A DNA stretch of 64,000 nucleotides from Amycolatopsis mongoliensis (lineage in GTDB: Bacteria; Actinomycetota; Actinomycetes; Mycobacteriales; Pseudonocardiaceae), in assembly GCF_030285665.1 (NCBI RefSeq), contig NZ_CP127295.1:9734001-9798000 (forward strand), written 5' to 3'. The position numbers and the translations under genes are program-made. The notes under the pieces are model-generated. The model worked only from the letters and a program-made list of their open reading frames with translations. It ran no database searches and was not told where the DNA came from. Below, one piece after another: positions 31,881 through 46,731 of this stretch. Numbering within the stretch: position 1 is the stretch's first letter; each line of letters begins with the position of its first letter.

Positions 31881-34157
31881 TCACGGCAGCCCCCACGGCA
31901 CGCTCGGCCCGGACGGCTCGACCGGCCGCACCCCGAAGTCCGGCCGGTCCCCCTTCCGGTACACGAAGGCGTCCTCACCGCGCCCCAGCTCCACCTGCAC
32001 GTCCCCGTTCGCCAACCGCCGCCGGCGCCGCGCACGACCTCGCGCGTCCGTCACCACGAGCTCGCCCTCGATGCCGGGCCGCAGCACGCAGGGCGCCCCG
32101 GCCTCGCTGTGCACCTTCAGCCAGCGCGTCTTCCCGCCCGCCCGGGACGCGCTCAGCAGGAACGCGCCTTCGGTGCGGAAGTCCCGCAGCGCGATGTCAC
32201 CCCAGGCCGCGGGCACCGCCGGGAACAGCCGGACCACGCCACCCCAGCTCTGCACCAGCATGTCCTGCATCGACTTCGCCGCCGACAACGGCGTCTCGAT
32301 GACCGGCCCCGACTCCTTGTACATCGTGTTCGGCTGGATGAACCGCCGCTGCAGCTCGCCGAGGTAGAACGCCGCCTGCTCGCCGCGCAGCATCTGCGCC
32401 GAGATCGACGCGGCCCCGGTGAACGTGTAGCCCTGCAGCGCGCCCTCGAAGCCGACCCAGTGGTTCAACGACGTCTCGATGATCTGCCGGTGCTCCGGCT
32501 GCTCCCACGTGACGTCGTGGAGCGGGTAGATCTGCAGCAGGTGTGAGTAGTGCCGGTGCGACTTCGCGAACGGCACGCCGGCCCCGATCATGTACCCGTT
32601 CGCATCGGCCGGGTAGCCCACCAGCGACGCCAGGACGTTCCGCCACTTCGGCGCCAGCGGGTCGCCCGGCGCGGTCTGCAGCAGCGTCTTGCACCCCCAG
32701 CGGATCAGCGAGAGGTCGTAGTTGCAGTCCGGCGCGTCGACGCCGTATTCGGGCGAGAACGTCGGCGGCAGGTGCAGCTTCCCGTCCGGGCCCGGCGCGA
32801 GGAAGTGCAGGTAGTAGCTGATCGCCTTGCGCAGCAACGGGACCAGCGTGCCGGTCAGCAGCTTCCGGTCCATGGTGTGGCGGTAGGACAGCCACACGTT
32901 GTGCAGCGCCCAGGTCAGGTTGCCGACCTCCGGGGTCGGCGGGTCCTGCCCCGGCACCCCGACGGGAAACCCGCTCGTGGCGTTCGAAACACCGTTGAGC
33001 AGCGTCATGTCGGTCGTGCGCGGGATGCCCGCGGAATCGGCCTGGTACGGGGTCGCGACCTGGCTGGTCAGGTTGGCGCGGTACTTGTCGAGGGCGAAGC
33101 TGACGGCGTCCAGTTCCAGGTGGTTCGAGCCGTGGATCAGCCAGTACTCGAGCTGGACGTTGAGGTTCCACCACGTCGCCGGCCACGGCGTGTTCTCCAG
33201 CCACGGCCCGGACGTCGCCATCACCGGTGCCTCGCGCCGGGCCGCCGACGCGATCTTGTACAGCTGGATCCAGTAGAAGCCCTGCAGCCGGGTGTCCGGA
33301 ATGGACACGAAGCTCGCCCGGTAGTAGTCGTGCCACCAGCGCCGGTGGTCCTGGGTCAGCGCACCGAACGGCTCGGCGCGGCGGACCGTGCCGAGCGCCC
33401 GCGCCGCCGCCGTCTTCGCCGGGTGCGACCACGCCACCGACGTGTACAGCGTGCGCGTGCCGCCGCGGGTGACCTCCCGCCAGGCCGTCACGTGCTCGCC
33501 GCCGGCCAGCAGCGGCTGGACGGCCAGCCGCGCGTCGCCGCTGCCGGACAGCTGCACCGCCGGGTTCGCGGTGTAGCCGGCGGGCGGCGGCTTGTTCCAC
33601 ACCGGGTCGGCGCGCGGGCTGACGGCGACCGCCGGGTGGAACACCCACGCGAACGCCCGTTCCCCCTCGGACGGGCGGACCTCGACGGCCAGCAGCGACT
33701 GTCCGGTGTGGACGATCGCGCGCAGGCTCAGGCTGCCGGCCGCGGTCGTGATCGTGCCGGTCAGCTCGGCGTTCCACAGGTCCATCCGCCAGTCGATCGC
33801 GGTGATCGCCCCGACCGGTTCGAGGGTGAAGTACCCGATCGGCAGCCGGGCCAGGCCGAACAGCGAGCCGAACTCCGGGCGGTGGTCCTGGACCTGGCTG
33901 TGCTGGACGGTGAAGCGGATGGCGTTCCGCCCCGGTTCGGCGTAGCTGCCCGAGCCGAGGAACCCGTTGCCCAGGAACGGGCCCTCGTACCAGGTCTTCG
34001 GCAGCCGTCGCCAGTACAGGTCCGCGGTGCCGAGGAACCCGGCCCAGCCGAAGTCGTCGCTGCCGGGGGCGTCGGCGAAGGCGGGCGTGATCCCCGCCGC
34101 GCCCGCCGCGATCCCGGCGAGTGCCCCGCCGAGCACGGTTCTGCGGGTGATGTCCAT
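31881..34157 (-). CDS. Secreted GH95-like glycoside hydrolase, second of a tandem pair
   Basis: A 758-residue exported enzyme starting MDITRRTVLGGALAG, a twin-arginine signal; AAGGAGGT stands at ideal distance before this ATG, which decides the start. A beta-sandwich (residues 30-250) precedes an alpha/alpha-barrel with WWNLNVQLEYW (the paired Asn of GH95), FSPEY (general-acid Glu) and HRHYSHLL. Where GH95 fucosidases have I-D-G-N-F-G, this protein has VIETPLS, with Glu at the Asp position. Such enzymes remove alpha-L-fucose or alpha-L-galactose from glycans; the substrate here is uncertain. Its paralogue lies 20 bases upstream in the same operon. Confidence 0.85.
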   Translation of the reverse strand: MDITRRTVLGGALAGIAAGAAGITPAFADAPGSDDFGWAGFLGTADLYWRRLPKTWYEGPFLGNGFLGSGSYAEPGRNAIRFTVQHSQVQDHRPEFGSLFGLARLPIGYFTLEPVGAITAIDWRMDLWNAELTGTITTAAGSLSLRAIVHTGQSLLAVEVRPSEGERAFAWVFHPAVAVSPRADPVWNKPPPAGYTANPAVQLSGSGDARLAVQPLLAGGEHVTAWREVTRGGTRTLYTSVAWSHPAKTAAARALGTVRRAEPFGALTQDHRRWWHDYYRASFVSIPDTRLQGFYWIQLYKIASAARREAPVMATSGPWLENTPWPATWWNLNVQLEYWLIHGSNHLELDAVSFALDKYRANLTSQVATPYQADSAGIPRTTDMTLLNGVSNATSGFPVGVPGQDPPTPEVGNLTWALHNVWLSYRHTMDRKLLTGTLVPLLRKAISYYLHFLAPGPDGKLHLPPTFSPEYGVDAPDCNYDLSLIRWGCKTLLQTAPGDPLAPKWRNVLASLVGYPADANGYMIGAGVPFAKSHRHYSHLLQIYPLHDVTWEQPEHRQIIETSLNHWVGFEGALQGYTFTGAASISAQMLRGEQAAFYLGELQRRFIQPNTMYKESGPVIETPLSAAKSMQDMLVQSWGGVVRLFPAVPAAWGDIALRDFRTEGAFLLSASRAGGKTRWLKVHSEAGAPCVLRPGIEGELVVTDARGRARRRRRLANGDVQVELGRGEDAFVYRKGDRPDFGVRPVEPSGPSVPWGLP

Positions 34158-34177
34158 TCCGACCTCCTTGTCGAAAC

Positions 34178-36478
34178 TCAGCTGGGCAGACCCCATGCCG
34201 GGGCGGAGCCGAGGGCGGGGACGTCCCGGGGCGCGAAGTCACCCCGCCCGCCGCGCGGGGTGACGACGGCGGTGCCGCCGCGCCGCAGCCCGATCGCGAT
34301 CCGGCCCGGCCCGGCCGGGCGCCACGGCAGCCGTCGGCCGTGCTCGTCACGGACGTCGACGTCCCCGGTGACGCCGTGCTGCAGCACCAGCGGCTCGCCG
34401 GCTTCGCTGTGCACGCGCACGAACTCCGTCTTCCCGTCGCGGCGGGAGGCGTCCACGAGGAACGCGCCCTCCGCGCGCAGGCCCGCGATCGAGGCGTCGC
34501 GCCAGGTCGCCGACACCGACGGGAAGACCTTGAGCACGCCACCGGAGCCCTGCATCAGCATGTCCACCACGGACTGGGCGGCGGTGATCGGGCTTTCGAC
34601 GGCGAAGTTGGAGCCCTCGCGGTACATCGTGTTCGCGGTCAGCTCGGTGTCGGCCACGACGTTCCGGTCGAGGAAGAACTTCAGGTAGCGCAACGCCTCC
34701 TCGGGCGCGTCCATCACCGAGCTCATCGACGACGCGGCCGCGTAGCTGTAGCCGTGCCACGCCGTCCGGTCGGTGATCCAGTGCCGGAACGTCCTCGTCA
34801 TGAGGTCGCGGTCGCCCGCCCGGTCCCAGACCTTCTCCCGCAGCGGGTACAGCCACAGCAGGTGCGAGAAGTGCCGGTGCGAGGCGGCCAGCGGCACGCC
34901 GTCGCCGATCAGGACACCGTCGGTCGCGGTTTCGTGGTAGGGCACCAGTTTCGTGCCGATCTCCTGCCAGATCGGGACGCGCGGCTCGTCGAGGCGCAGG
35001 ATCCGCGCGGAGTCGACGAGCGTGCGGGCGGCCCACCGGATCAGCGACAGGTCGTAGGTGCAGTCGGCCGCGTCGGCGTACTCCGGCGAGCGGGTCAGCG
35101 GCAGGTGCAGGTACCCGTCGGGGCCGGTGAAGAGGAAGTGGCGGTAGAAGTTCAGCGCCTTCGCCAGCGTCGGGTACAGGACGTCGCGCAGCACGCGCCG
35201 GTCCAGGTGGTGCCGGTAGGCGAGCCAGACGTTGTGCAGGCCCCACAGCAGGTTCCCGGTCTGGTCCGTCTTGGACGTCGTCCCGGGGACGCCGACCGAG
35301 CGCGTGCCGCCGGGGCGCAGCCGCCAGTCACCGGGGTGCGAGAGCGCGTAGGTGTCGCCGTCGCGGTAGGCCGGCGGCACGGACGTCTCCAGGTTCGCGT
35401 GGTCGCGCCGGAAGGTCTCGGTGACGGCGTCGAGCTCGGGGTGGTTGCTGCTGTTGACGATCGGGTAGGTGACCTGGACGTTGAGGTTCCACCAGACCGC
35501 GGTCCAGCTGTTGCCGACCTCGGGGAACCACGGGCCCCACTCGGACACGACCGGCCCGTCCGCCCGCGTCGCGGCCGCGATCTTGTAGAGCTGGATCCAG
35601 TAGAACCGCTGGACCTGCTTGTCCGGCACCGAAACGAAGCTGCGCGCGTGGTAGTCGTTCCACCAGCGGCGGTGGCGGGCGAGCAGCGCGTCCGGGTTCG
35701 CGGCAAGCGCTTTCCGGACGGCCGAGAGGGCGTCCGCCGTGTGCGTCGTGCCCGGGAAGCTGTAGGCGACGGTCGCGGCGAGCAGCCGTCGCGCCCCGAT
35801 CGTGCGTTCGCGCCAGGCCGTCGTGTAGCCGCCCCCGGCGAGCATCGGCTGGGCGCAGTAGCCGTCGCCGAGCTCGGGCGCGGGGTTCGCGACGTACTCG
35901 GGGGGCTTGCGCACGGTCCGGGTCGTCGCCGACTCCAGCGGCTGGAACGCCCAGGCCGCGCCGGCCTCACCCGCGCTCGGAGTCAGCGAGACGAGCAGCA
36001 CGCCCAGGTCGTTGTGCACCACCGCGGAGAACGCGACCGACCCCTGGGTCGTGGTGATCGTGCCGCCGAGCTCGGCGTTGTAGAGGTCGAGCGTCCAGTC
36101 GACGGCGGTGATCGCGCCGGCCAGGGTCAGCGTCAGGAAGCCGATCGGCAGCCGGGACAACCCGATCCCGGCCTCCCACTGGATGCGCTGGTCCTGCACC
36201 TGGGTGTGGCTCAGCATCACCTTGAGCACCTGCGGCGTCTTCCCGGCGTAGACCTGCGCGCCGAGGTAGCCGTTGGCCAGGAACGGGCCTTCCTGCCAGT
36301 TCTTCGGCAGTCGCTTCCAGATCATCCGCGCGTCGGCGGCGACGTCCCGGTGTGGGTTCGCCGGGTGCGCGGCGGCCAGCGCGGGCGCGGCCGCCCTCGC
36401 CCACAGGCCACCGAACGCGGCAGCTCCCGCCACGACCGAGGCAGAGCGGAGCACGGTACGCCGCGACACTGCGTCCAT
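34178..36478 (-). CDS. Secreted GH95-like glycoside hydrolase, first of a tandem pair
   Basis: A 766-residue exported enzyme starting MDAVSRRTVLRSASVV (twin-arginine signal; AAAGGA upstream of the ATG). The same architecture as its downstream paralogue: N-terminal beta-sandwich, barrel with WWNLNVQ (N331 and N333), SPEY (E466), HRHFSHL (534-540), then a C-terminal sandwich. FAVESPIT (625-632) replaces the family's I-D-G-N-F-G, again Glu for the catalytic-region Asp. The paralogues share order of motifs throughout but differ in length of loops, so the duplication is old. First gene of the operon; a TetR gene lies upstream on the same strand. Confidence 0.85.
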   Translation of the reverse strand: MDAVSRRTVLRSASVVAGAAAFGGLWARAAAPALAAAHPANPHRDVAADARMIWKRLPKNWQEGPFLANGYLGAQVYAGKTPQVLKVMLSHTQVQDQRIQWEAGIGLSRLPIGFLTLTLAGAITAVDWTLDLYNAELGGTITTTQGSVAFSAVVHNDLGVLLVSLTPSAGEAGAAWAFQPLESATTRTVRKPPEYVANPAPELGDGYCAQPMLAGGGYTTAWRERTIGARRLLAATVAYSFPGTTHTADALSAVRKALAANPDALLARHRRWWNDYHARSFVSVPDKQVQRFYWIQLYKIAAATRADGPVVSEWGPWFPEVGNSWTAVWWNLNVQVTYPIVNSSNHPELDAVTETFRRDHANLETSVPPAYRDGDTYALSHPGDWRLRPGGTRSVGVPGTTSKTDQTGNLLWGLHNVWLAYRHHLDRRVLRDVLYPTLAKALNFYRHFLFTGPDGYLHLPLTRSPEYADAADCTYDLSLIRWAARTLVDSARILRLDEPRVPIWQEIGTKLVPYHETATDGVLIGDGVPLAASHRHFSHLLWLYPLREKVWDRAGDRDLMTRTFRHWITDRTAWHGYSYAAASSMSSVMDAPEEALRYLKFFLDRNVVADTELTANTMYREGSNFAVESPITAAQSVVDMLMQGSGGVLKVFPSVSATWRDASIAGLRAEGAFLVDASRRDGKTEFVRVHSEAGEPLVLQHGVTGDVDVRDEHGRRLPWRPAGPGRIAIGLRRGGTAVVTPRGGRGDFAPRDVPALGSAPAWGLPS

Positions 36479-36582
36479 GAAGCGTCCTTTCACATTCATA
36501 CTACGTTTCACGAGATCCACAGGCGGCGTCCGGCCATGTTTGCAGACAGAGTCCCCAAAGACCAGGGTTGTTCACCCAGAAA

Positions 36583-37308: not shown

Positions 37309-38145
37309 ATGCGAACCATCGCCAACACCCGGCAAGCCGAAGCCTGGAACGGCTGGGAGGGTGCGCACTGGGCGCGCAACCGCGCCCGCTACAACGCGAC
37401 TGTCGGCGCCTTCAACGACGGCCTCTTCCGCGCCGCCGCGATCGCCCCGGACGACCGGGTCCTCGACGTCGGCTGCGGGACCGGCCACGTCACGCTGCTG
37501 GCGGCACGGCGGGCCGGCCGGGGAACCGTCGTCGGAGTCGATCTCTCGGCCCCGATGCTGGAGCGCGCCCGCGCCGACGCGGCGGCCCAGGGCCTCGCCA
37601 ACGTCCGGTTCGAGCAGGGGGACGCCCAGGTCCACTCCTTCCCGGACGCCGGCTTCGACGTCGCGATCAGCCAGGGCGGGGTGATGTTCTTCGAGGACGA
37701 GGTCGCCGCGTTCGCCAACATCCGGCGCGGGCTGCGGCCCGGCGGGCGGCTGGTGTTCATGGGTCCGCAGGCCGGCGGGCCCGAGAGCGACTACGCCCGC
37801 GCCACCAGCGCGCTCAAGCCCCTGCTGCGCGCACCGTCGCCCGCTTCGCGGGGCATGGGCTCCCTGACCGACCCGGCCCGCATCCGGGAAGTGCTCGACG
37901 CGGCCGGGTTCACCGGCGCAGCGGTCGAACCGGTCACCGCGCTCATGGACTACGGTCGCGACGCCGCCGACGCGGCCGAGTTCATCCTCGGGCAGGGACC
38001 GGTGCGCAGCAATCTGGCCGGACTCGACCCGAGCGTCGTCGAACCGGCGCGGGCCCGGCTGCGGGAAGGGCTCGAGGCGTACGAAACCCCCGAAGGCGTC
38101 CGCATCCCCGGCGCGGTCTGGCTGGTCAGCGCCGCCCGTCCCTGA
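37309..38145 (+). CDS. Class I SAM-dependent methyltransferase
   Basis: A 278-residue methyltransferase. VLDVGCGTGHVT is SAM motif I, GVDLSAPML the acidic-loop motif II, and the family's LRPGGRLVFM follows. GGGAGGT precedes the ATG. The substrate is unknown; length and motifs fit ubiquinone/sterol-type (methyltransf_11) members. It is divergent from the TetR gene and shares its operator, so probably is regulated by it. Confidence 0.9.
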   Translation: MRTIANTRQAEAWNGWEGAHWARNRARYNATVGAFNDGLFRAAAIAPDDRVLDVGCGTGHVTLLAARRAGRGTVVGVDLSAPMLERARADAAAQGLANVRFEQGDAQVHSFPDAGFDVAISQGGVMFFEDEVAAFANIRRGLRPGGRLVFMGPQAGGPESDYARATSALKPLLRAPSPASRGMGSLTDPARIREVLDAAGFTGAAVEPVTALMDYGRDAADAAEFILGQGPVRSNLAGLDPSVVEPARARLREGLEAYETPEGVRIPGAVWLVSAARP

Positions 38146-38152
38146 CCGGGGG

Positions 38153-39568
38153 TCAGGCGCCCGGAAGGGCGGGGAGCGCCGGCGTCTCCAGCCAGCGCGT
38201 GAAGAACGAGTCCAGCGACCGGGCCGCATACGCTTCCGCCATGGCCACGAAGCCCTCCGTCGTGACCAGGCCGTGCCGGTGTTCCCCCGTCCACGCCTTC
38301 AGCAACGCGAAGAACGCCGGATCGCCGATCTCCGCGCGCAGCGCGTGCAGCGTCAGCGCGCCCCGCTTGTAGACGCGCTCGTCGAACATGCGGGCCACGC
38401 CCGGGTCGGCGATCCGGACGTCCGCCGGCTTGGCCTTGATCCGCGTGTGCCAGCCGCGGGCCAGCGCCTGCGCCGACTGCCCGCCCGACTCCTCCGACCA
38501 CAGCCACTCGGCGTAGGTCGCGAAGCCTTCGTTCAGCCAGATGTGGCTCCAGTCGGCCACCGTCAGGCTGTTGCCGAACCACTGGTGGGCCAGCTCGTGC
38601 ACCACGAGCCGCTCGTGGGTGCGGCGGCCGTCGACGTGGTTGGCGCCGAAGATCGCCATGCCCTGCGCCTCGATCGGGTCGTCGAGCTCGTCGTCGGTGA
38701 CGACGATGACGTACTCGCCGAACGGGTACGGGCCGAACAGCCGCTGCAGCATCTCCAGCATCCGGCCCTGCCGCCCGAAGTCGCGCTCGAAGAGGCGACG
38801 CAGCCGAGGCGGGACGGCCGCGCGCTGCGGCACGGCTTCGAGGACCGACTCCACGCGCCCGCTCGCGCGCCCGAAGCCGAGGCTCAGCCGCCGCGAGCTG
38901 ACCCCCGTGTGCGGGAACCAGCCGCGGCCGGTCAGCTCGAGCTCGTCGTAGCGGCCGATCTGCACGCTCATCAGGTACGTCGCGGTCGGCTCGGGACGTT
39001 CGTACACCCACCTCGTGGTGCTCGCCGCGGTGTAGCGGTCCACCAGGTTGCCGGTGACCGCGACCAGGTACGGCGACGCCGTCGTCACGGTCACGCGGTA
39101 GGTCGCCTTGTCCGCCGGGTGGTCGTTGCACGGGAACCACGACGGCGCGCCGACCGGCTGGCTCGCCACGAGCGCGCCGTCGGTCAGCTCGTCCCAGCCG
39201 ACGTCGCCCCAGCGGCTCCGCACCGGGCGCGGGTTGCCGACGTAGTGCACCTCGACGAGGAACGCGGCACCCGCCGCGATCGACCGCGCCGGCCTGACGT
39301 GCAGCTTGGCGCCGCGCTTCAGGTACTTGGCGGGCTTGCCGTCGACCAGCACGCGGTTGATCCGGAACTCGCCGAAGTCCAGGCTGACGCGGGAAAGCGC
39401 CTGCGTCGCCTCCGCGGTGATCGCCGCCGAGGCCGAGAGCCGGTTCGGCGCGACCTTGTAGTCGAGGTTCAGCTCGTAGTGCCGGACCCGGTAGCCGCCG
39501 TTGCCGTGCGCGGGCAGGTAGGGGTCACCGGAAGTATCCGCGCCGGGTGCCGGAGCCTTCGAAATCAC
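38153..39568 (-). CDS. M1-type zinc metallopeptidase beside the polymer synthetase
   Basis: A 471-residue peptidase. The zinc site is H324-E-L-A-H328 plus E347 in LNEGFATYAEW, as in M1 aminopeptidases, and the N-terminal 200 residues form the M1 beta-saddle. The exopeptidase GAMEN motif is not present; EAQGMAIFG stands at that place. No signal peptide is obvious. GTG 39568 lies 90 bases after the polymer synthetase stop on the same strand, so they may be cotranscribed. In epsilon-polylysine producers a membrane-associated M1-type peptidase encoded beside the synthetase degrades the polymer (established knowledge, recalled); this gene is a candidate equivalent. Confidence 0.9.
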   Translation of the reverse strand: MISKAPAPGADTSGDPYLPAHGNGGYRVRHYELNLDYKVAPNRLSASAAITAEATQALSRVSLDFGEFRINRVLVDGKPAKYLKRGAKLHVRPARSIAAGAAFLVEVHYVGNPRPVRSRWGDVGWDELTDGALVASQPVGAPSWFPCNDHPADKATYRVTVTTASPYLVAVTGNLVDRYTAASTTRWVYERPEPTATYLMSVQIGRYDELELTGRGWFPHTGVSSRRLSLGFGRASGRVESVLEAVPQRAAVPPRLRRLFERDFGRQGRMLEMLQRLFGPYPFGEYVIVVTDDELDDPIEAQGMAIFGANHVDGRRTHERLVVHELAHQWFGNSLTVADWSHIWLNEGFATYAEWLWSEESGGQSAQALARGWHTRIKAKPADVRIADPGVARMFDERVYKRGALTLHALRAEIGDPAFFALLKAWTGEHRHGLVTTEGFVAMAEAYAARSLDSFFTRWLETPALPALPGA

Positions 39569-39658
39569 CCGTGCCGAACCTTTCCTCGTGCCGACGTACC
39601 AATCCAGGCTCGCACGGACGGGTGAGTCCGGCGAGCCAGGCGCGTACTTCGTGACCTT

Positions 39659-42600
39659 CTACTTACCCGTCCACGCGGAGATCGGGTTGCCGAGCCAGCG
39701 GGTGTCGGCCGGCACCTCGTCGCCGCGGGTCACCAGGGAACCCGGGCCGACCGTGGTGCGCGCGCCGATGCCGGCGCCCGGCAGCACGATGCCGTGCGGG
39801 CCGAGCGTCGCGCCCTCGCCGAGCGCCACCCGCGACATGCTCATGATCCGGTCGTGGAACAGGTGCGTCTGCACGACGCAGCCGCGGTTGATCGTCGCGC
39901 CGTCGCCGAGCTCGACGAGATCGGCTTCGGGCAGCCAGTACGTCTCGAGCCACACGCCGCGGCCGATCTTGACGCCCATCGTGCGCAGCCAGGCCGGCAG
40001 CAGCGGGGTACCGGCGATCGAGCCGATCAGCCACGGCACCGCGAGGGCCTCGACGAAGGTGTCGGCCAGCTCGTTGCGCCAGACGAAGGAGCTCCACAGC
40101 GGGTGGTCGACCTCGCGGAACTTGCCGACCAGCAGCCACTTCATGACGGTCGCGGTCAGTGCCGCGACGATCCCGGCGGCCAGCAGGACGGGCCCGGCCA
40201 GCAGCGCGGCCACCGCGAAGCCGAACGCCGACGCCGCCCCCAGCAGCCCGAAGGCGACCGTGACGGTCAGCGCGACCGCGCACATGACCGGGATGATCCG
40301 GCACAGCTCGACCAGCGCCCGCGCCGCCTTGAGGTGCAGCGCCGGGGTGTAGGTGCGGCTCGTGTCGGCGTCGCCGATCGCGCGGCGGACCGGCAGCGGC
40401 GGCATCCCGAGGTACGACGAGCCCTTCTTCGCCTTCAGCGGCGTCGAGGACAGGACGCCGACCAGGCCGCGCTTCGGCACCGAACGGCCGGGCGCGGTCA
40501 TCCCCGAGTTGCCGAGGAAGGCCTGCTTGCCGATCCGGGCCGGGGCGACGTGCAGCCAGCCGTGGCCGAGCTCGTAGGTGGCGACCATGGTGTCGTCGGC
40601 CAGGAACGCGCCGCTGTCGACCTTGGTCATCTTCGGCAGCGCGAGCACGGTGGACGCCTCGACGTTGCGGCCGACCTTCGCGCCGAGCAGCCGCAGCCAC
40701 ACCGGCGTGAACAGGCTGGCGTACAGCGGGAACAGGCCCTCGCGGGCCATGCTCATCAGACGTTCGGTGGCCCAGACCTGCCACGCCACGCGGCCGTGCA
40801 CCGGGTGGTAGCCCTCGACCATGCCGATGCTCAGCGCCCGGACGCCGGCGAGCACGAGCAGCATGTACGCGGCGAAGTACACCACGGTCGCGACCGGGAC
40901 GAAGATCAGCGCCTGGGTGAACGCGGCCAGGAGCGTCGGGGCGCCCGCGATCGCGTACCCGAGCACGGCGACGCCCGCCAGCGCGGCGACGCCGGGCAGG
41001 AAGCCGAGCGCGAGGGAGGTCGCGCCGTAGACGGCGGCCCAGAAGTGCGACCGCGGCGGACGGCTCGACGGCCACTTCAGCGCGTCCTTCGCGTCCTTGC
41101 CGTCCTTCCCGACGGGCGCCGCGGGCGAACCGGCGAAGTGCTGACCGGCCTTGACCACGCCGCGGACGGTCGACCCGGCCGCGATCTCCGCGCCCTTGCC
41201 GATCCGGACGCCGGGGAACAGCGTGCTGCGCGCGCCGATGCGGGCCTCCGCGCCGACGCGGACCTTGCCGATGTGCACGACGTCGCCGTCGACCCAGTGG
41301 CCGGTCAGGTCGACCTCGGGCTCGATCGCCGCGCCGCGGCCCAGCTTGAGGAAGCCGGTGACCGGCGGCGGCGAGTGCAGGTCGACGTCCTTGCCGATCC
41401 GCGCGCCGAGCGCCTTGGCGTAGGTGGTCATCCAGGACGCGCCGGCGACGCTGTCCGCGCCGCTGAACTCCGCGAGCTTCTCGGCCGTCCACAGTCGCAA
41501 GTGGACACTGCCACCGCGCGGGTAGGTGCCGGGGCGGACGCCGGACAGCAGCACGCGCGCGCCGCCCGCGGCGATGGCGATCCGGCCCGCGGGGCTGAAC
41601 AGCGCGACCCAGGCCAGGCCGACCCACGCCCAGTTCAGCGTCGGCGCCCAGGCGAACCCGAGCAGGGACAGCACGTTCGACAGCGCGGCGGCGAGGGTCG
41701 CCCAGCGCAGGCCGACGAGGCCCATCAGAGGGACCATCAGCAGCGTCTGGATCACCCCGGCGCGACGCGGGGTCGGCGCGATCTCGCGGCGCTCGGTGGC
41801 CTGGCCGGACAGCGCGTCCAGCATCGCGGCCAGCGCGCCCAGCTTGGGGTGGGAGTAGATGTCGGCGACCGACACCTGCGGGTGCCGGGTGCGGATCCGG
41901 GCCACCACCTGCGCGGCGGTCAGGCTGCCGCCGCCGTGGGTGAAGAAGTCGGCCTTCGGGTCGTCGACCGACACGCCGAGGATCTCGGCCCAGCCTTCGG
42001 CGAGCCACGTCTCGGTCGGCGACAGCCCGGTGGCGTCCACTGTGGACAGCGGCCACGGGAGGGCGTTGCGGTCGACCTTGCCGGAGGTGCGGGTCGGCAG
42101 GTCGTCGACGACGGCCAGCAGCGGCACCAGCGCGGCGGGCAGGTGCTCGCGCAGCCGGGTCGCGGACTCGTCGAGGTCGAACGGGACACCGGCGGCGGGC
42201 ACGACGTAGCCGACGAGGACCTGGTTGCCGGCCTTGGTGCGGCGGATCGCGGCGGCCGCGCCCTGCACGCCCGGCAGGGCCTGCAGCGCGGCGTCGACCT
42301 CGCCCAGCTCGATGCGGCGGCCGCCGAGCTTGACCTGCTCGTCGAGGCGGCCGAGGAACAGCAGGCCCTCGGCCTCGGCGCGGACCATGTCGCCGGAGCG
42401 GTAGGCGCGCTGCCAGCCCAGCGACGGCAGCGGCGCGAACTTCTCGGCGTCCTTCTCGGCGTCGAGGTAGCGGGCCAGGCCGGCGCCGCCGATGACGAGC
42501 TCACCGGTCTCGCCCATGGCGACCGGCCGCCCGTCGTCGTCGACCACGGCCAGCTGCCAGCCCGCCAGCGGCAGGCCGATGCGGACCGGGCCTTCGCCGG

Positions 42601-43609
42601 TCAGCTGCGCGGCGCAGGCGACGACGGTGGCCTCGGTCGGGCCGTAGGTGTTCCAGACTTCGCGGCCTTCGACGGCGACGCGCTCGGCCAGCTCCGGCGG
42701 GCACGCTTCGCCGCCGAAGATGAGCAGGCGGACGTCTTCGAGCGCGTCGGCGGGCCACAGCGCGGCCAGCGTCGGCACGGTCGAGACGACGGTGATGCGC
42801 TGTGCGACCAGCCACGGGCCGAGGTCGACGCCGGTGCGGACCAGCGCGCGCGGCGCCGGGACCAGGCAGGCGCCGTGGCGCCAGGCCAGCCACATCTCTT
42901 CGCAGGAGGCGTCGAAGGCGACGCTCAGGCCGGCCAGCACCCGGTCACCCGGGCCGATCGGCTCCTCGGTGAGGAACAGCTCGGCTTCGGCGTCGACGAA
43001 CGCGGCGGCACTCGCGTGGCTCACTGCGACGCCCTTGGGCTTGCCGGTGGAGCCGGAGGTGAAGATGATCCAGGCGTCGTCGGCGGGTCCGGGGACGCCG
43101 TGGCGGCCGCCCGGGGTGCTGTGGACGGTGATCTTGCCGTCGGTGGCGACGGCCGCGACCTGGGCCTCTTCGAAAACCAGCTCGGCGCGCTCGTCCGGGT
43201 CGTCCGCGTCGACCGGCACGTAGGCGGCGCCGACGGACAGGGTGGCGAGGATCGCGACGTACAGCTCGGCGGTGCCGGAGGAGATCCGGATGCCGACGCG
43301 GTCGCCGAGGCCGACGCCGTAACCGCGCAGGCGGCGACCGTAGACCTCGATCTCCTCGAGCAGGCGGCGGTAGGTCAGGGTGGTGGTGCCGTCGTCGATC
43401 GCGGCGGCGTTGGGGTGCCGCTCCGCCGTGGCGGCGAGGACGTCGAGCAGGGTGCGCTCGCTGGCGCCGAGACCGGACCAGAACAGGGCCCGGTCGGCGA
43501 CCGGCGTGGCCGAGGGCGCGTGCGTCACCTCGGCGACGCAGGCGAGCGGCGCGGTGATCTCCGCGTCGGTCTCCGGGACCGATCCGGCGGGTTCGATCGT
43601 GACGGTCAT
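39659..43609 (-). CDS. Pls/PosA-family non-ribosomal poly(amino acid) synthetase
   Basis: A 1316-residue single-chain NRPS, the length and layout of epsilon-polylysine synthetase. Residues 40-520 are the adenylation domain (FTSGSTGKPKG 183-193; TYGPTE 321-326; K511). A carrier protein follows, with pantetheine Ser562 in HGGGSL. From about 620 to the end, three hexapeptide-repeat (left-handed beta-helix) condensation modules alternate with six membrane segments. Aligned to the GrsA code positions, specificity residues are D233, A234, E237, S276, I297, G299, T321, V329, V330, K511: DAESIGTVVK, close to the DAESIGSVCK I recall for lysine in bacitracin synthetase. Expected product: a polymer of a basic amino acid joined through its side chain, made at the membrane. 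An M1 peptidase gene follows. Confidence 0.93.
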   Translation of the reverse strand: MTVTIEPAGSVPETDAEITAPLACVAEVTHAPSATPVADRALFWSGLGASERTLLDVLAATAERHPNAAAIDDGTTTLTYRRLLEEIEVYGRRLRGYGVGLGDRVGIRISSGTAELYVAILATLSVGAAYVPVDADDPDERAELVFEEAQVAAVATDGKITVHSTPGGRHGVPGPADDAWIIFTSGSTGKPKGVAVSHASAAAFVDAEAELFLTEEPIGPGDRVLAGLSVAFDASCEEMWLAWRHGACLVPAPRALVRTGVDLGPWLVAQRITVVSTVPTLAALWPADALEDVRLLIFGGEACPPELAERVAVEGREVWNTYGPTEATVVACAAQLTGEGPVRIGLPLAGWQLAVVDDDGRPVAMGETGELVIGGAGLARYLDAEKDAEKFAPLPSLGWQRAYRSGDMVRAEAEGLLFLGRLDEQVKLGGRRIELGEVDAALQALPGVQGAAAAIRRTKAGNQVLVGYVVPAAGVPFDLDESATRLREHLPAALVPLLAVVDDLPTRTSGKVDRNALPWPLSTVDATGLSPTETWLAEGWAEILGVSVDDPKADFFTHGGGSLTAAQVVARIRTRHPQVSVADIYSHPKLGALAAMLDALSGQATERREIAPTPRRAGVIQTLLMVPLMGLVGLRWATLAAALSNVLSLLGFAWAPTLNWAWVGLAWVALFSPAGRIAIAAGGARVLLSGVRPGTYPRGGSVHLRLWTAEKLAEFSGADSVAGASWMTTYAKALGARIGKDVDLHSPPPVTGFLKLGRGAAIEPEVDLTGHWVDGDVVHIGKVRVGAEARIGARSTLFPGVRIGKGAEIAAGSTVRGVVKAGQHFAGSPAAPVGKDGKDAKDALKWPSSRPPRSHFWAAVYGATSLALGFLPGVAALAGVAVLGYAIAGAPTLLAAFTQALIFVPVATVVYFAAYMLLVLAGVRALSIGMVEGYHPVHGRVAWQVWATERLMSMAREGLFPLYASLFTPVWLRLLGAKVGRNVEASTVLALPKMTKVDSGAFLADDTMVATYELGHGWLHVAPARIGKQAFLGNSGMTAPGRSVPKRGLVGVLSSTPLKAKKGSSYLGMPPLPVRRAIGDADTSRTYTPALHLKAARALVELCRIIPVMCAVALTVTVAFGLLGAASAFGFAVAALLAGPVLLAAGIVAALTATVMKWLLVGKFREVDHPLWSSFVWRNELADTFVEALAVPWLIGSIAGTPLLPAWLRTMGVKIGRGVWLETYWLPEADLVELGDGATINRGCVVQTHLFHDRIMSMSRVALGEGATLGPHGIVLPGAGIGARTTVGPGSLVTRGDEVPADTRWLGNPISAWTGK

Positions 43610-43863
43610 CGGGCCTTCACCTCGACCACGACGAAGACGTGCAGGGACGAACTATGGGCGCGCAAGCCCACCACTCACCTTCCGGGAGCCTCACCGGGCT
43701 TGCACTCCTGAATGAGGCGCCCGCAACGACCCTCCACCATACTCGCAGATGAAGGAAACATATCTTCGAGATCACGACGGAGTGTCGGACCTCACCACAA
43801 CCGCCCTGACCAGCGTGATCCAGGTCGCATTCGGCGGATCACGCCGGCCGGGACGTCAAGAAA
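43610..43863 (-). promoter_or_regulatory. Leader region upstream of the polymer synthetase gene
   Basis: 254 bases between der and the synthetase, the longest gap of the window. An AT-rich patch at 43740-43770 holds, on the minus strand, TATGGT (43742-43737) with a weak GATATG 17 bases upstream, giving a possible promoter and a leader of about 120 bases. No reading frame or clear hairpin is seen in it. Confidence 0.3.
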
Positions 43864-45336
43864 TCACCGGGACTTGGCGGGCCTGGCCGCTTTTCCGCCG
43901 ACCTTCGGTTTCGCCTTCTTTTCGCGGACGCGCACATTCACCCGAACGGGGCTGCCTTCGAAGCCGAACTTCTCGCGGAACTTGCGCTCGATGAACCGGC
44001 GGTAGCCCGCCTCGAGGAAGCCGGTGGTGAACAGCACCAGCGTCGGCGGCCGGATGCCCGCCTGCGTCGCGAACAGCACCTTCGGCTGCTTGCCGCCCCG
44101 GACCGGCGGCGGGGTGGCCGCGATCAGGTCGGACAGCCAGGCGTTGAGCTGGCCGGTCGGCACCCGCTTGTCCCACGACGCCAGCGCCGTCCGCAGCGCC
44201 GGGGCGATCTTGCGCACCGAGCGGCCGGTCAGCGCCGAGACGTTGACCTTCTCCGCCCACGGCACGCGGACCAGGCCGCGCTCCAGCTCCCGGACCATCG
44301 CGTGCCGCCGGTCCTCGTCGACCAGGTCCCACTTGTTGAACGCCAGCACGCAGGCGCGGCCGGCCTCGACGACCATGGTCAGCACCCGCAGGTCCTGCTC
44401 CGAGATCGGCTCGGCCGCGTCCAGCAGCACGATCGCGACCTCGGCCGCGTCGATCGCGGTCTTGGTGCGCAGCGAGGCGTAGTACTCGGCGCCGGCGGCG
44501 AAGTTGACGCGCTTGCGCAGGCCCGCCGTGTCGACGAACCGCCAGGTCTCGCCGTCCAGCTCGACCAGCGAGTCGACCGGGTCGACGGTGGTGCCGGCGA
44601 CCGAGTCGACGACCGAGCGCTCCTCGCCCGACAGCTTGTTCAGCAGGCTCGACTTGCCGACGTTCGGCTTGCCGACCAGCGCGACGCGCCGCGGGCCCGA
44701 CGTCGCGGCGACGCCCTCGCGCGGCGCCTCCGGCAGGGTCTTGAGGATGGCGTCGAGCAGGTCGCCGGAGCTGCGGCCGTGCAGCGCGCTGACCGGGTGC
44801 GGCTCGCCGAGGCCGAGCGACCACAGCGACGCGGTGTCCGCGAGCAGCCGGTCGTCGTCGACCTTGTTCGCCACCAGCAGCACCGGCTTCTTCGAGCGGC
44901 GCAGCACCTTGGAGGCGGCTTCGTCGGTGGCGGTGGCACCGACCGAAGCGTCGATCACCAGCAAGATCGCGTCCGCGGTCTGCATGGCCAGCTCGGCCTG
45001 GGCGGCGACGGAGGCCTGCAGCCCGGTCGCGTCCGGCTCCCAGCCGCCGGTGTCGACCAGGGTGAACTTGCGCCCGCCCCAGTAGGCGTCGTAGGCGACG
45101 CGGTCGCGGGTGACGCCCGGCACGTCCTGCACCACGGCTTCGCGGCGGCCGATGATGCGGTTGACCAGCGTGGACTTGCCCACGTTCGGCCGGCCGACCA
45201 CGGCGAGCACCGGTTGCGCGAGCGCGGCCTCCTCGGCCGCTTCCGCCGCCTCGATCTGCGCGTCGAGCCTGGCGAACTCGGTCTCGTCCGACCAAGTGCC
45301 GTCGACTTCGCCGACGCTGTCCAACTCTTCCATCAC
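43864..45336 (-). CDS. der: Ribosome biogenesis GTPase Der (EngA)
   Basis: A 490-residue double GTPase. Two G domains, each with its own P-loop ([13 protein letters not shown] and [13 protein letters not shown]), DxxG switch and NKxD (ANKVDD, FNKWDL), are followed by a KH-like C-terminal domain. It assembles the 50S subunit. The start is either GTG 45336 or the adjacent ATG 45333; the ribosome site AAGGGA is 9 and 12 bases away respectively. It lies 13 bases after the acyltransferase stop in the cmk operon. Confidence 0.96.
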
Positions 45337-45349
45337 TACCCAATTTCCC

Positions 45350-46009
45350 TTATGGCGTAGCGAATCCGTTTTCGCTGCGCCAATCGTCCAAAGTCTTCAC
45401 GAGCGCCGCGAGCTCACCGCGCAGCTCTTCGGTGCCCTGGTCGAGCCCGGTCTTCCCGGGTCCGACCTTCGGCGAGAACGGCTCCCCCACGAGGATGTCC
45501 ACGCGCGGGCGCCAGCGCCGCTTGCCGTCCGCGGGCTTGAGCGTCCCCCGCGTCGCGACCGGGAGCACGATCGCGCCGGACGCCCGGACCAGCCAGGCCG
45601 CGCCGCGTTCGGCCGCACCGACGTCCCCGGCACCGCGGGTGCCCTCGGGGAAGATCCCGACGACCCCGCCGTCCTTGAGCACGCCGACCGCCGTCAGCAG
45701 CGGCTTCCGGTCGATCTCGCCGCGCTTGAGCGGGATCTGCCCGATGGCCACCAGGAACTTCCCGACCACGCCCTTGAACAGCTCGGCCTTGACCAGGAAC
45801 GCCGAACGCCGCGGCAGCATTCCGAAGATCAGCTGCGGCTCGATCATCGAACTGTGGTTGGCGATCACCAGCACCGGCCCGGAGGCCGGCATCCGCTCGC
45901 GGCCGTGCACGCGGATGCGGAACGCCGATCGCAGATGGTACCGGGCGAAGACCCGCCCGGCGTCGTGGAGCCAGCCGACGGAGCCTTCCGGCAGTCCGTC
46001 AGCGCTCAT
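45350..46009 (-). CDS. 1-acyl-glycerol-3-phosphate acyltransferase (PlsC family)
   Basis: A 219-residue acyltransferase. ATG 46009 overlaps the cmk stop (ATGA), which decides the start. Motif I reads N-H52-S-S-M-I-E57, so the usual Asp of H-x4-D is Glu here; motif [10 protein letters not shown] and motif IV LPVATRG are intact. It transfers acyl chains to lysophosphatidate in phospholipid synthesis, probably at the membrane. The cmk-plsC-der order is common in actinobacteria. Confidence 0.9.
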
Positions 46010-46731
46010 CGCGCGACCTCGGCGTTGCACCCCGCCAGCAGGCCGCGGTGGCTGGCCAGTTCGCTGAGGGCGACGATCACCTGGTCGATCGACAGTTCCG
46101 AGGTGTCGACGTGGACCGCGTCGTCGGCCGCGCGCAGCGGCGAGGCGGTGCGGGTGGAGTCGAGGTGGTCGCGGCGCTCGACGCTCGCCAGCGCATCGGC
46201 GACCGACAACTTCCGCCCGGCCGCGGTGTCCTGGGTGCTGCGGCGCGAGGCGCGGACATCGGCGGAGGCGGTCAGGTAGACCTTCAGCGGCGAGTCCGGC
46301 GCGACGACGGTGCCGATGTCCCGGCCCTCGACGACGATCCCGCCGATGCCGTCCAGGACCTCGTCGATGATCTGCCGCTGCCGGGCGACGAGCAGCTCAC
46401 GCACGTGGGGCACGGCCGAGACGGGCGAGACGGCCTTGGTGACCTCGGGACCGCGGATGTCGGTGGCGACGTCCTCGCCGGCCAGCCGGATCTCCAGCCG
46501 GTCGGGGCTGGTGCCGATGCCGAAGTCGGTCTTGTCGGCGAGCGCGGCGACGGCGGCCGAGTCGGCCGGGTCGACGCCGGCCCGCAGCACGGCGAGGGTG
46601 ACCATCCGGTACATGGCGCCGGTGTCGAGGTACCCGGCCCCGAGCCGCTGGGCGAGCTTGCGCGCGACGGTGGTCTTCCCGGTCCCCGACGGGCCGTCCA
46701 GCGCGACCACACCACGTAGGGCTCCCGTCAC
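46006..46731 (-). CDS. cmk: Cytidylate kinase
   Basis: A 241-residue kinase that phosphorylates CMP and dCMP. I chose GTG 46731, seven bases after AGGAG; another GTG two codons earlier overlaps that site. GPSGTGKTTVARKLA is the P-loop, YLDTGAMYRMVT the CMP-binding segment and VVEGRDIGTVVAPD the conserved middle motif. First gene of the cmk-plsC-der operon, coupled to the next by ATGA. Confidence 0.95.
   Translation of the reverse strand: MTGALRGVVALDGPSGTGKTTVARKLAQRLGAGYLDTGAMYRMVTLAVLRAGVDPADSAAVAALADKTDFGIGTSPDRLEIRLAGEDVATDIRGPEVTKAVSPVSAVPHVRELLVARQRQIIDEVLDGIGGIVVEGRDIGTVVAPDSPLKVYLTASADVRASRRSTQDTAAGRKLSVADALASVERRDHLDSTRTASPLRAADDAVHVDTSELSIDQVIVALSELASHRGLLAGCNAEVAR

Follow-up and report, generated by a model that had tools for sequence, protein, structure and literature searches.

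Whether Amycolatopsis mongoliensis, a soil actinomycete, carries the genes both to make and to trim a basic isopeptide polymer, from which amino acid such a polymer would be built, and whether the metallopeptidase gene beside the synthetase is its partner or merely a neighbor are the questions raised by this locus, which an earlier note had taken for a candidate epsilon-polylysine locus. In an attempt to answer them, we analyzed the genes within the window, a stretch of 64,000 nucleotides (positions 9734001-9798000 of the single-contig 10.81-Mb genome), and compared them with solved structures, with related loci and with described polymer systems. The coordinates of the features are collected in Table 1.

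Table 1. Features of the synthetase (pls) and M1 peptidase genes, in window coordinates.
Feature	Coordinates	Strand	Evidence
pls, Pls/PosA-family epsilon-poly-L-lysine synthetase (predicted), 1316 aa	39659..43609	(-)	TIGR02353, 7wew, code
adenylation domain, ~residues 55-522, holding the ten pocket positions (residues 233-511)	42044..43447	(-)	PF00501, PF13193, 7wew alignment
carrier domain, residues 535-597; Ser562 at 41924-41926	41819..42007	(-)	PF00550, residue check
C1 domain, residues 672-860, boundaries chosen by us	41030..41596	(-)	hhalign to C2 and C3; PF00132
C2 domain, residues 935-1095, boundaries chosen by us	40325..40807	(-)	hhalign to C1 and C3
C3 domain, residues 1165-1314, boundaries chosen by us	39668..40117	(-)	hhalign to C1 and C2; solved hexapeptide acetyltransferases
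pldII-type M1 metallopeptidase, 471 aa; HELAH residues 324-328 (38585-38599)	38153..39568	(-)	PF01433, PF17900, motifs

The synthetase reading frame that had been described for this locus was recovered at its full length, and its protein scored 714.8 bits against TIGR02353, the model of the Pls/PosA family (cut-off 423.1), which places it in that family. Among the matches listed (the best 120 of 7709 proteins), its nearest named relatives were from Amycolatopsis, with up to 95% identity over the full length. Pfam recognized AMP-binding, AMP-binding_C and carrier domains and, in addition, a single hexapeptide stretch at residues 783-817 (38.0 bits, cut-off 27). Residue 562, previously named as the carrier serine, is a serine within FFTHGGGSLTAAQ, with the PF00550 domain around it. 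The overall layout is one adenylation and one carrier domain followed by a C1-C2-C3 tandem, in which C2 was recognized via profile comparison only. In these comparisons, hhalign gave probabilities of 99.06% (C1-C2), 99.41% (C1-C3) and 98.29% (C2-C3), which indicates that the three C domains are mutually homologous, and the two control comparisons with a membrane stretch gave 0.52 and 0.50%. Among solved structures, C3 matched hexapeptide acetyltransferases (E 1.7e-5) and C1 showed weak similarity to GlmU and to serine acetyltransferases (E 0.005 to 0.01); of the best 60 of 83 solved matches, none covers the entire C-terminal region. The claim of three hexapeptide-type condensation modules thus holds as to three homologous C domains; the hexapeptide character was found by Pfam for C1 and through solved acetyltransferases for C3, and C2 shares it solely by likeness to these two. 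Pls enzymes have six membrane helices around the C domains; in this protein simple hydropathy, which marks stretches and does not count helices, located membrane-like stretches at residues 623-644, 862-934 and 1095-1164.

To define the substrate pocket, the ten code positions (residues 233, 234, 237, 276, 297, 299, 321, 329, 330 and 511) were placed by motif and by the Stachelhaus spacing, and they read DAESIGTVVK. The earlier note had read the same ten letters as a lysine-like code and had proposed checking them by alignment with an epsilon-polylysine synthetase. The top match (E 3.5e-202) among 185 matched solved sequences was 7wew, the crystallized adenylation domain of an epsilon-poly-L-lysine synthase; aligned jointly, the two share 328 of 491 residues (67%), and the pocket of 7wew reads DAESIGTVVK as well, with identical residues at all ten positions (10/10). 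This code fits pls more closely than DAESIGSVCK, the bacitracin lysine code, which the earlier note had cited for lysine. A tree of 66 adenylation domains united pls, 7wew and 58 other lysine-coded rows in a 100/100 clade, with codes of DAESIGTVVK or, in three rows, DAESVGTVVK; within it 7wew branches outside the other 59, and three paralogue and three outgroup rows, some of them long-branched, lie outside the clade. The spacing used also agrees with the numbering of the code residues of PosA (PMC10522769), except for a one-residue offset between positions 4 and 5.

According to PMC10522769, code position 2 tracks the side-chain length of the substrate, being Ala in lysine enzymes, Met in the ornithine enzyme PosA, Phe in diaminopropionate and diaminobutyrate enzymes, and Gly in a beta-lysine enzyme (code DGESISVVNK). 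Position 2 of pls is Ala, and L-lysine is predicted as its substrate with high confidence. That pls would instead polymerize ornithine, diaminobutyrate, diaminopropionate or beta-lysine was considered, since such enzymes share the architecture, PosA is described as modestly active with lysine too (PMC10522769), and ten-residue codes are imperfect predictors. We regard these substrates as very improbable because of position 2 and the code identity with 7wew, and in this genome Phe at position 2 belongs to another synthetase, encoded in an ask-dat operon.

Comparison with described systems places the L-lysine reading in context. The pls-pldII operon has already been described in Streptomyces albulus and Corynebacterium (PMC8117764, PMC9223678). 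With S. albulus Pls/PldII the locus shares the ten-residue code, the A-T-C1-C2-C3 order with membrane stretches and a peptidase directly downstream, whose reading frame is 1404 bp there (PMC9223678) and 1416 bp with the stop codon here; it differs in an adenylation-domain identity of 67% and in a 90-base gap, compared with the translational coupling reported for S. albulus (PMC9223678). The Corynebacterium variabile pair has, by description, the same operon layout and Pls architecture (PMC8117764), and belongs to another family of the class. PosA, the delta-poly-L-ornithine synthetase of Acinetobacter baumannii, has the same family, domain order and Asp/Glu at positions 1/3, but its code is DMEHNGTVSK and its operon is described as a single gene (PMC10522769). 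Poly-diaminobutyrate and poly-diaminopropionate synthetases again share the family architecture and differ by Phe at position 2 (PMC10522769), and the diaminobutyrate type further by its ask and dat neighbors (PMC8117764), whereas pls has Ala at position 2 and is flanked by der, acyltransferase and M1 genes; the diaminobutyrate type in A. mongoliensis is represented by a synthetase outside the window (L003, below).

The second gene of the pair begins 90 bases beyond pls, directly downstream on the same strand, where a HELAH metallopeptidase had been claimed. Its protein matched PF01433 (98.3 bits, cut-off 27.7) and, also above cut-off, PF17900, and the zinc-site motifs are intact, with HELAH at residue 324, NEGF from residue 346 and Tyr400. 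The likeness to PldII, known here for S. albulus by description, lies in family, position and length. Other M1 enzymes carry GAMEN; the corresponding slot of this protein reads PIEAQGM (region 38585-38680). Among 81 aligned pls-linked M1 rows, HExxH is kept in all 81, HELAH in 78, and P-x-EAQ in at least 72 (counted over the eight commonest patterns), and P-x-EAQ may be a mark of M1 enzymes that cleave isopeptide polymers.

Aminopeptidases of the M1 family are common, and the closest solved relative of this protein, the putative zinc metalloprotease 6a8z (474 aa, E 4.1e-52), has no stated link to polylysine, so that the gene might encode a general aminopeptidase that merely neighbors pls. We evaluated this through the conservation of the pair. 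A search of genome contigs found at least 594 stretches encoding a pls relative, of which the best 80 loci were analyzed up to 10 kb each way. In all 80 the M1 gene follows pls on the same strand and the code is DAESIGTVVK, while der and plsC-like acyltransferase neighbors were each found in only 8. In A. mongoliensis itself, der (a ribosome biogenesis GTPase gene) and an acyltransferase gene lie on the strand of pls and upstream of it (43864-46030), and der is near pls in 7/7 named Amycolatopsis loci. Since the M1 gene stays as the other neighbors change, a chance neighborhood is most improbable, and the M1 protein as partner of the synthetase, the reading we prefer, agrees with what the earlier note had supposed.

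Because the 80 loci are the best matches only, a genus set and a phylum set were examined too. In 80 Amycolatopsis genomes, a Pls match at E <= 1e-290 was present in 80/80, an M1 match at E <= 1e-70 in 79/80, and both genes adjacent on one strand in 78/80. The two exceptions were a genome with the pls and M1 genes on separate contigs (G037) and a fragmented assembly with neither gene of the pair, the sole Pls match of which is a 56% second copy (G062). Of 246 genomes drawn evenly from the phylum, 13 matched at the strict threshold of the genus search with A. mongoliensis included, and 12 of 245 without it; all 12 of these remaining holders have the code DAESIGTVVK and a neighboring M1 gene, which further argues against a general aminopeptidase. 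The idea that the pair is peculiar to Amycolatopsis was rejected, because the loci span many actinobacterial genera, including Streptomyces, Actinoplanes, Nocardia, Rhodococcus and Mycobacterium.

Based on these comparisons, the locus is very probably a pls-pldII operon by which the antimicrobial polymer epsilon-poly-L-lysine would be made and trimmed, a function predicted from the gene sequences, and it is an ordinary member of an already described two-gene system. On the model of homologous enzymes, from which catalysis, linkage, degradation and self-protection are all read across, the adenylation domain would activate L-lysine and load it onto Ser562 of the carrier domain, and the membrane part with its three acyltransferase-like C domains would link the bound lysine, via epsilon-amino bonds, to free lysine or to the polymer under construction, so that epsilon-poly-L-lysine results; an acceptor-donor mechanism of Pls is described in PMC3937719. 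The adjacent M1 metallopeptidase would hydrolyze the isopeptide bonds, and could thereby limit chain length and protect the producer. In PMC9223678, repression of pldII in S. albulus is reported to have altered polymer length and reduced tolerance, and PldII is said there to act in an endo-type manner and also to proceed stepwise from the N-terminus.

Such an operon could also be silent in A. mongoliensis and yield no polymer in nature; in C. variabile, the synthetase gene was functional yet no polymer was detected from culture (PMC8117764). A scan of 38000-43900 found nothing promoter-like or terminator-like, including no sigma-70-type site, and the sigma-70-type model says little in a GC-rich host. 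Against silence, no internal stop occurs in the listed Pls matches of the 80 Amycolatopsis genomes, and one would expect an unused gene pair to degenerate; we consider a silent locus quite improbable.

The analysis settles how the locus should be annotated and documents that a pls-pldII pair keeps its lysine pocket unchanged throughout a genus. One study reported an epsilon-poly-L-lysine cluster in each of its four Amycolatopsis strains (PMC11004387); by title, a literature search that covers few subscription journals returned neither a polymer isolated from Amycolatopsis nor a genus-wide count of pls. The near-universal presence of the pair in Amycolatopsis (78/80) contrasts with the 12/245 phylum genomes holding the synthetase, and the purpose of epsilon-polylysine is called unclear in PMC9606270. 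If this near-universality reflects a physiological role, Amycolatopsis could reveal the purpose of the polymer. It is possible, if rather doubtful, that pls-pldII is a core, vertically kept pair of the genus and not an occasional antibiotic cluster; the polymer might therefore have a constant role, for example as a polycation related to the envelope or to stress that the cell makes and trims, either in addition to killing competitors or in place of it.

Lysine-type synthetases also occur in the genus as second copies. Seventeen other Amycolatopsis genomes contain 19 further Pls matches of 52-57% identity (L103-L121); 16 of these carry the code DAESIGTVVK and 3 carry DAESVGTVVK. No M1 gene lies beside the second copy in any of the 19 stretches, of which 18 are informative, each with at least 3 kb downstream, and one (L117) stops 99 bases past the gene; beside three of them (L104, L110 and L118), no other degrading enzyme stood out among ten annotated neighbor proteins. 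Since these copies lack an adjacent M1 gene, the peptidase is not required by every lysine-type synthetase. Lysine-type synthetases can stand without it, which counts against a strict need.

Outside the window, the A. mongoliensis genome encodes two more Pls/PosA-type synthetases. One of them (L003; C1:9087055-9090927, stretch L090:6650-13571) has the code DFECLSVVTK, with Phe at position 2, scores 690.5 bits against TIGR02353 and sits between aspartate kinase and diaminobutyrate-2-oxoglutarate transaminase genes (an ask-dat operon), neighbors that PMC8117764 describes for diaminobutyrate polymer operons. It is likely a poly-diaminobutyrate operon, and more than one cationic polymer may therefore come from this genome. 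The other (L002; C1:9127966-9131826, within C1:9127789-9131886, stretch L089:7784-11884) has the code DSECYGGVTK and falls below the TIGR02353 cut-off (367.8 against 423.1 bits), and a 190-aa SET-domain reading frame (26.7 bits, cut-off 22.4) abuts it 3 bases upstream. In PMC10522769 this code is that of a Bdellovibrionales enzyme that modestly activates L-arginine and does not favor the four diamino acids tested. Among 59 other genomes searched, one (G075) has a close relative, with the same code. The locus possibly directs an unreported cationic polymer and, with its SET-domain neighbor, is the more novel lead of the two paralogues. Elsewhere in the window, two adjacent, overlapping reading frames at 31881-36520 (-) both match the catalytic domain of glycoside hydrolase family 95.
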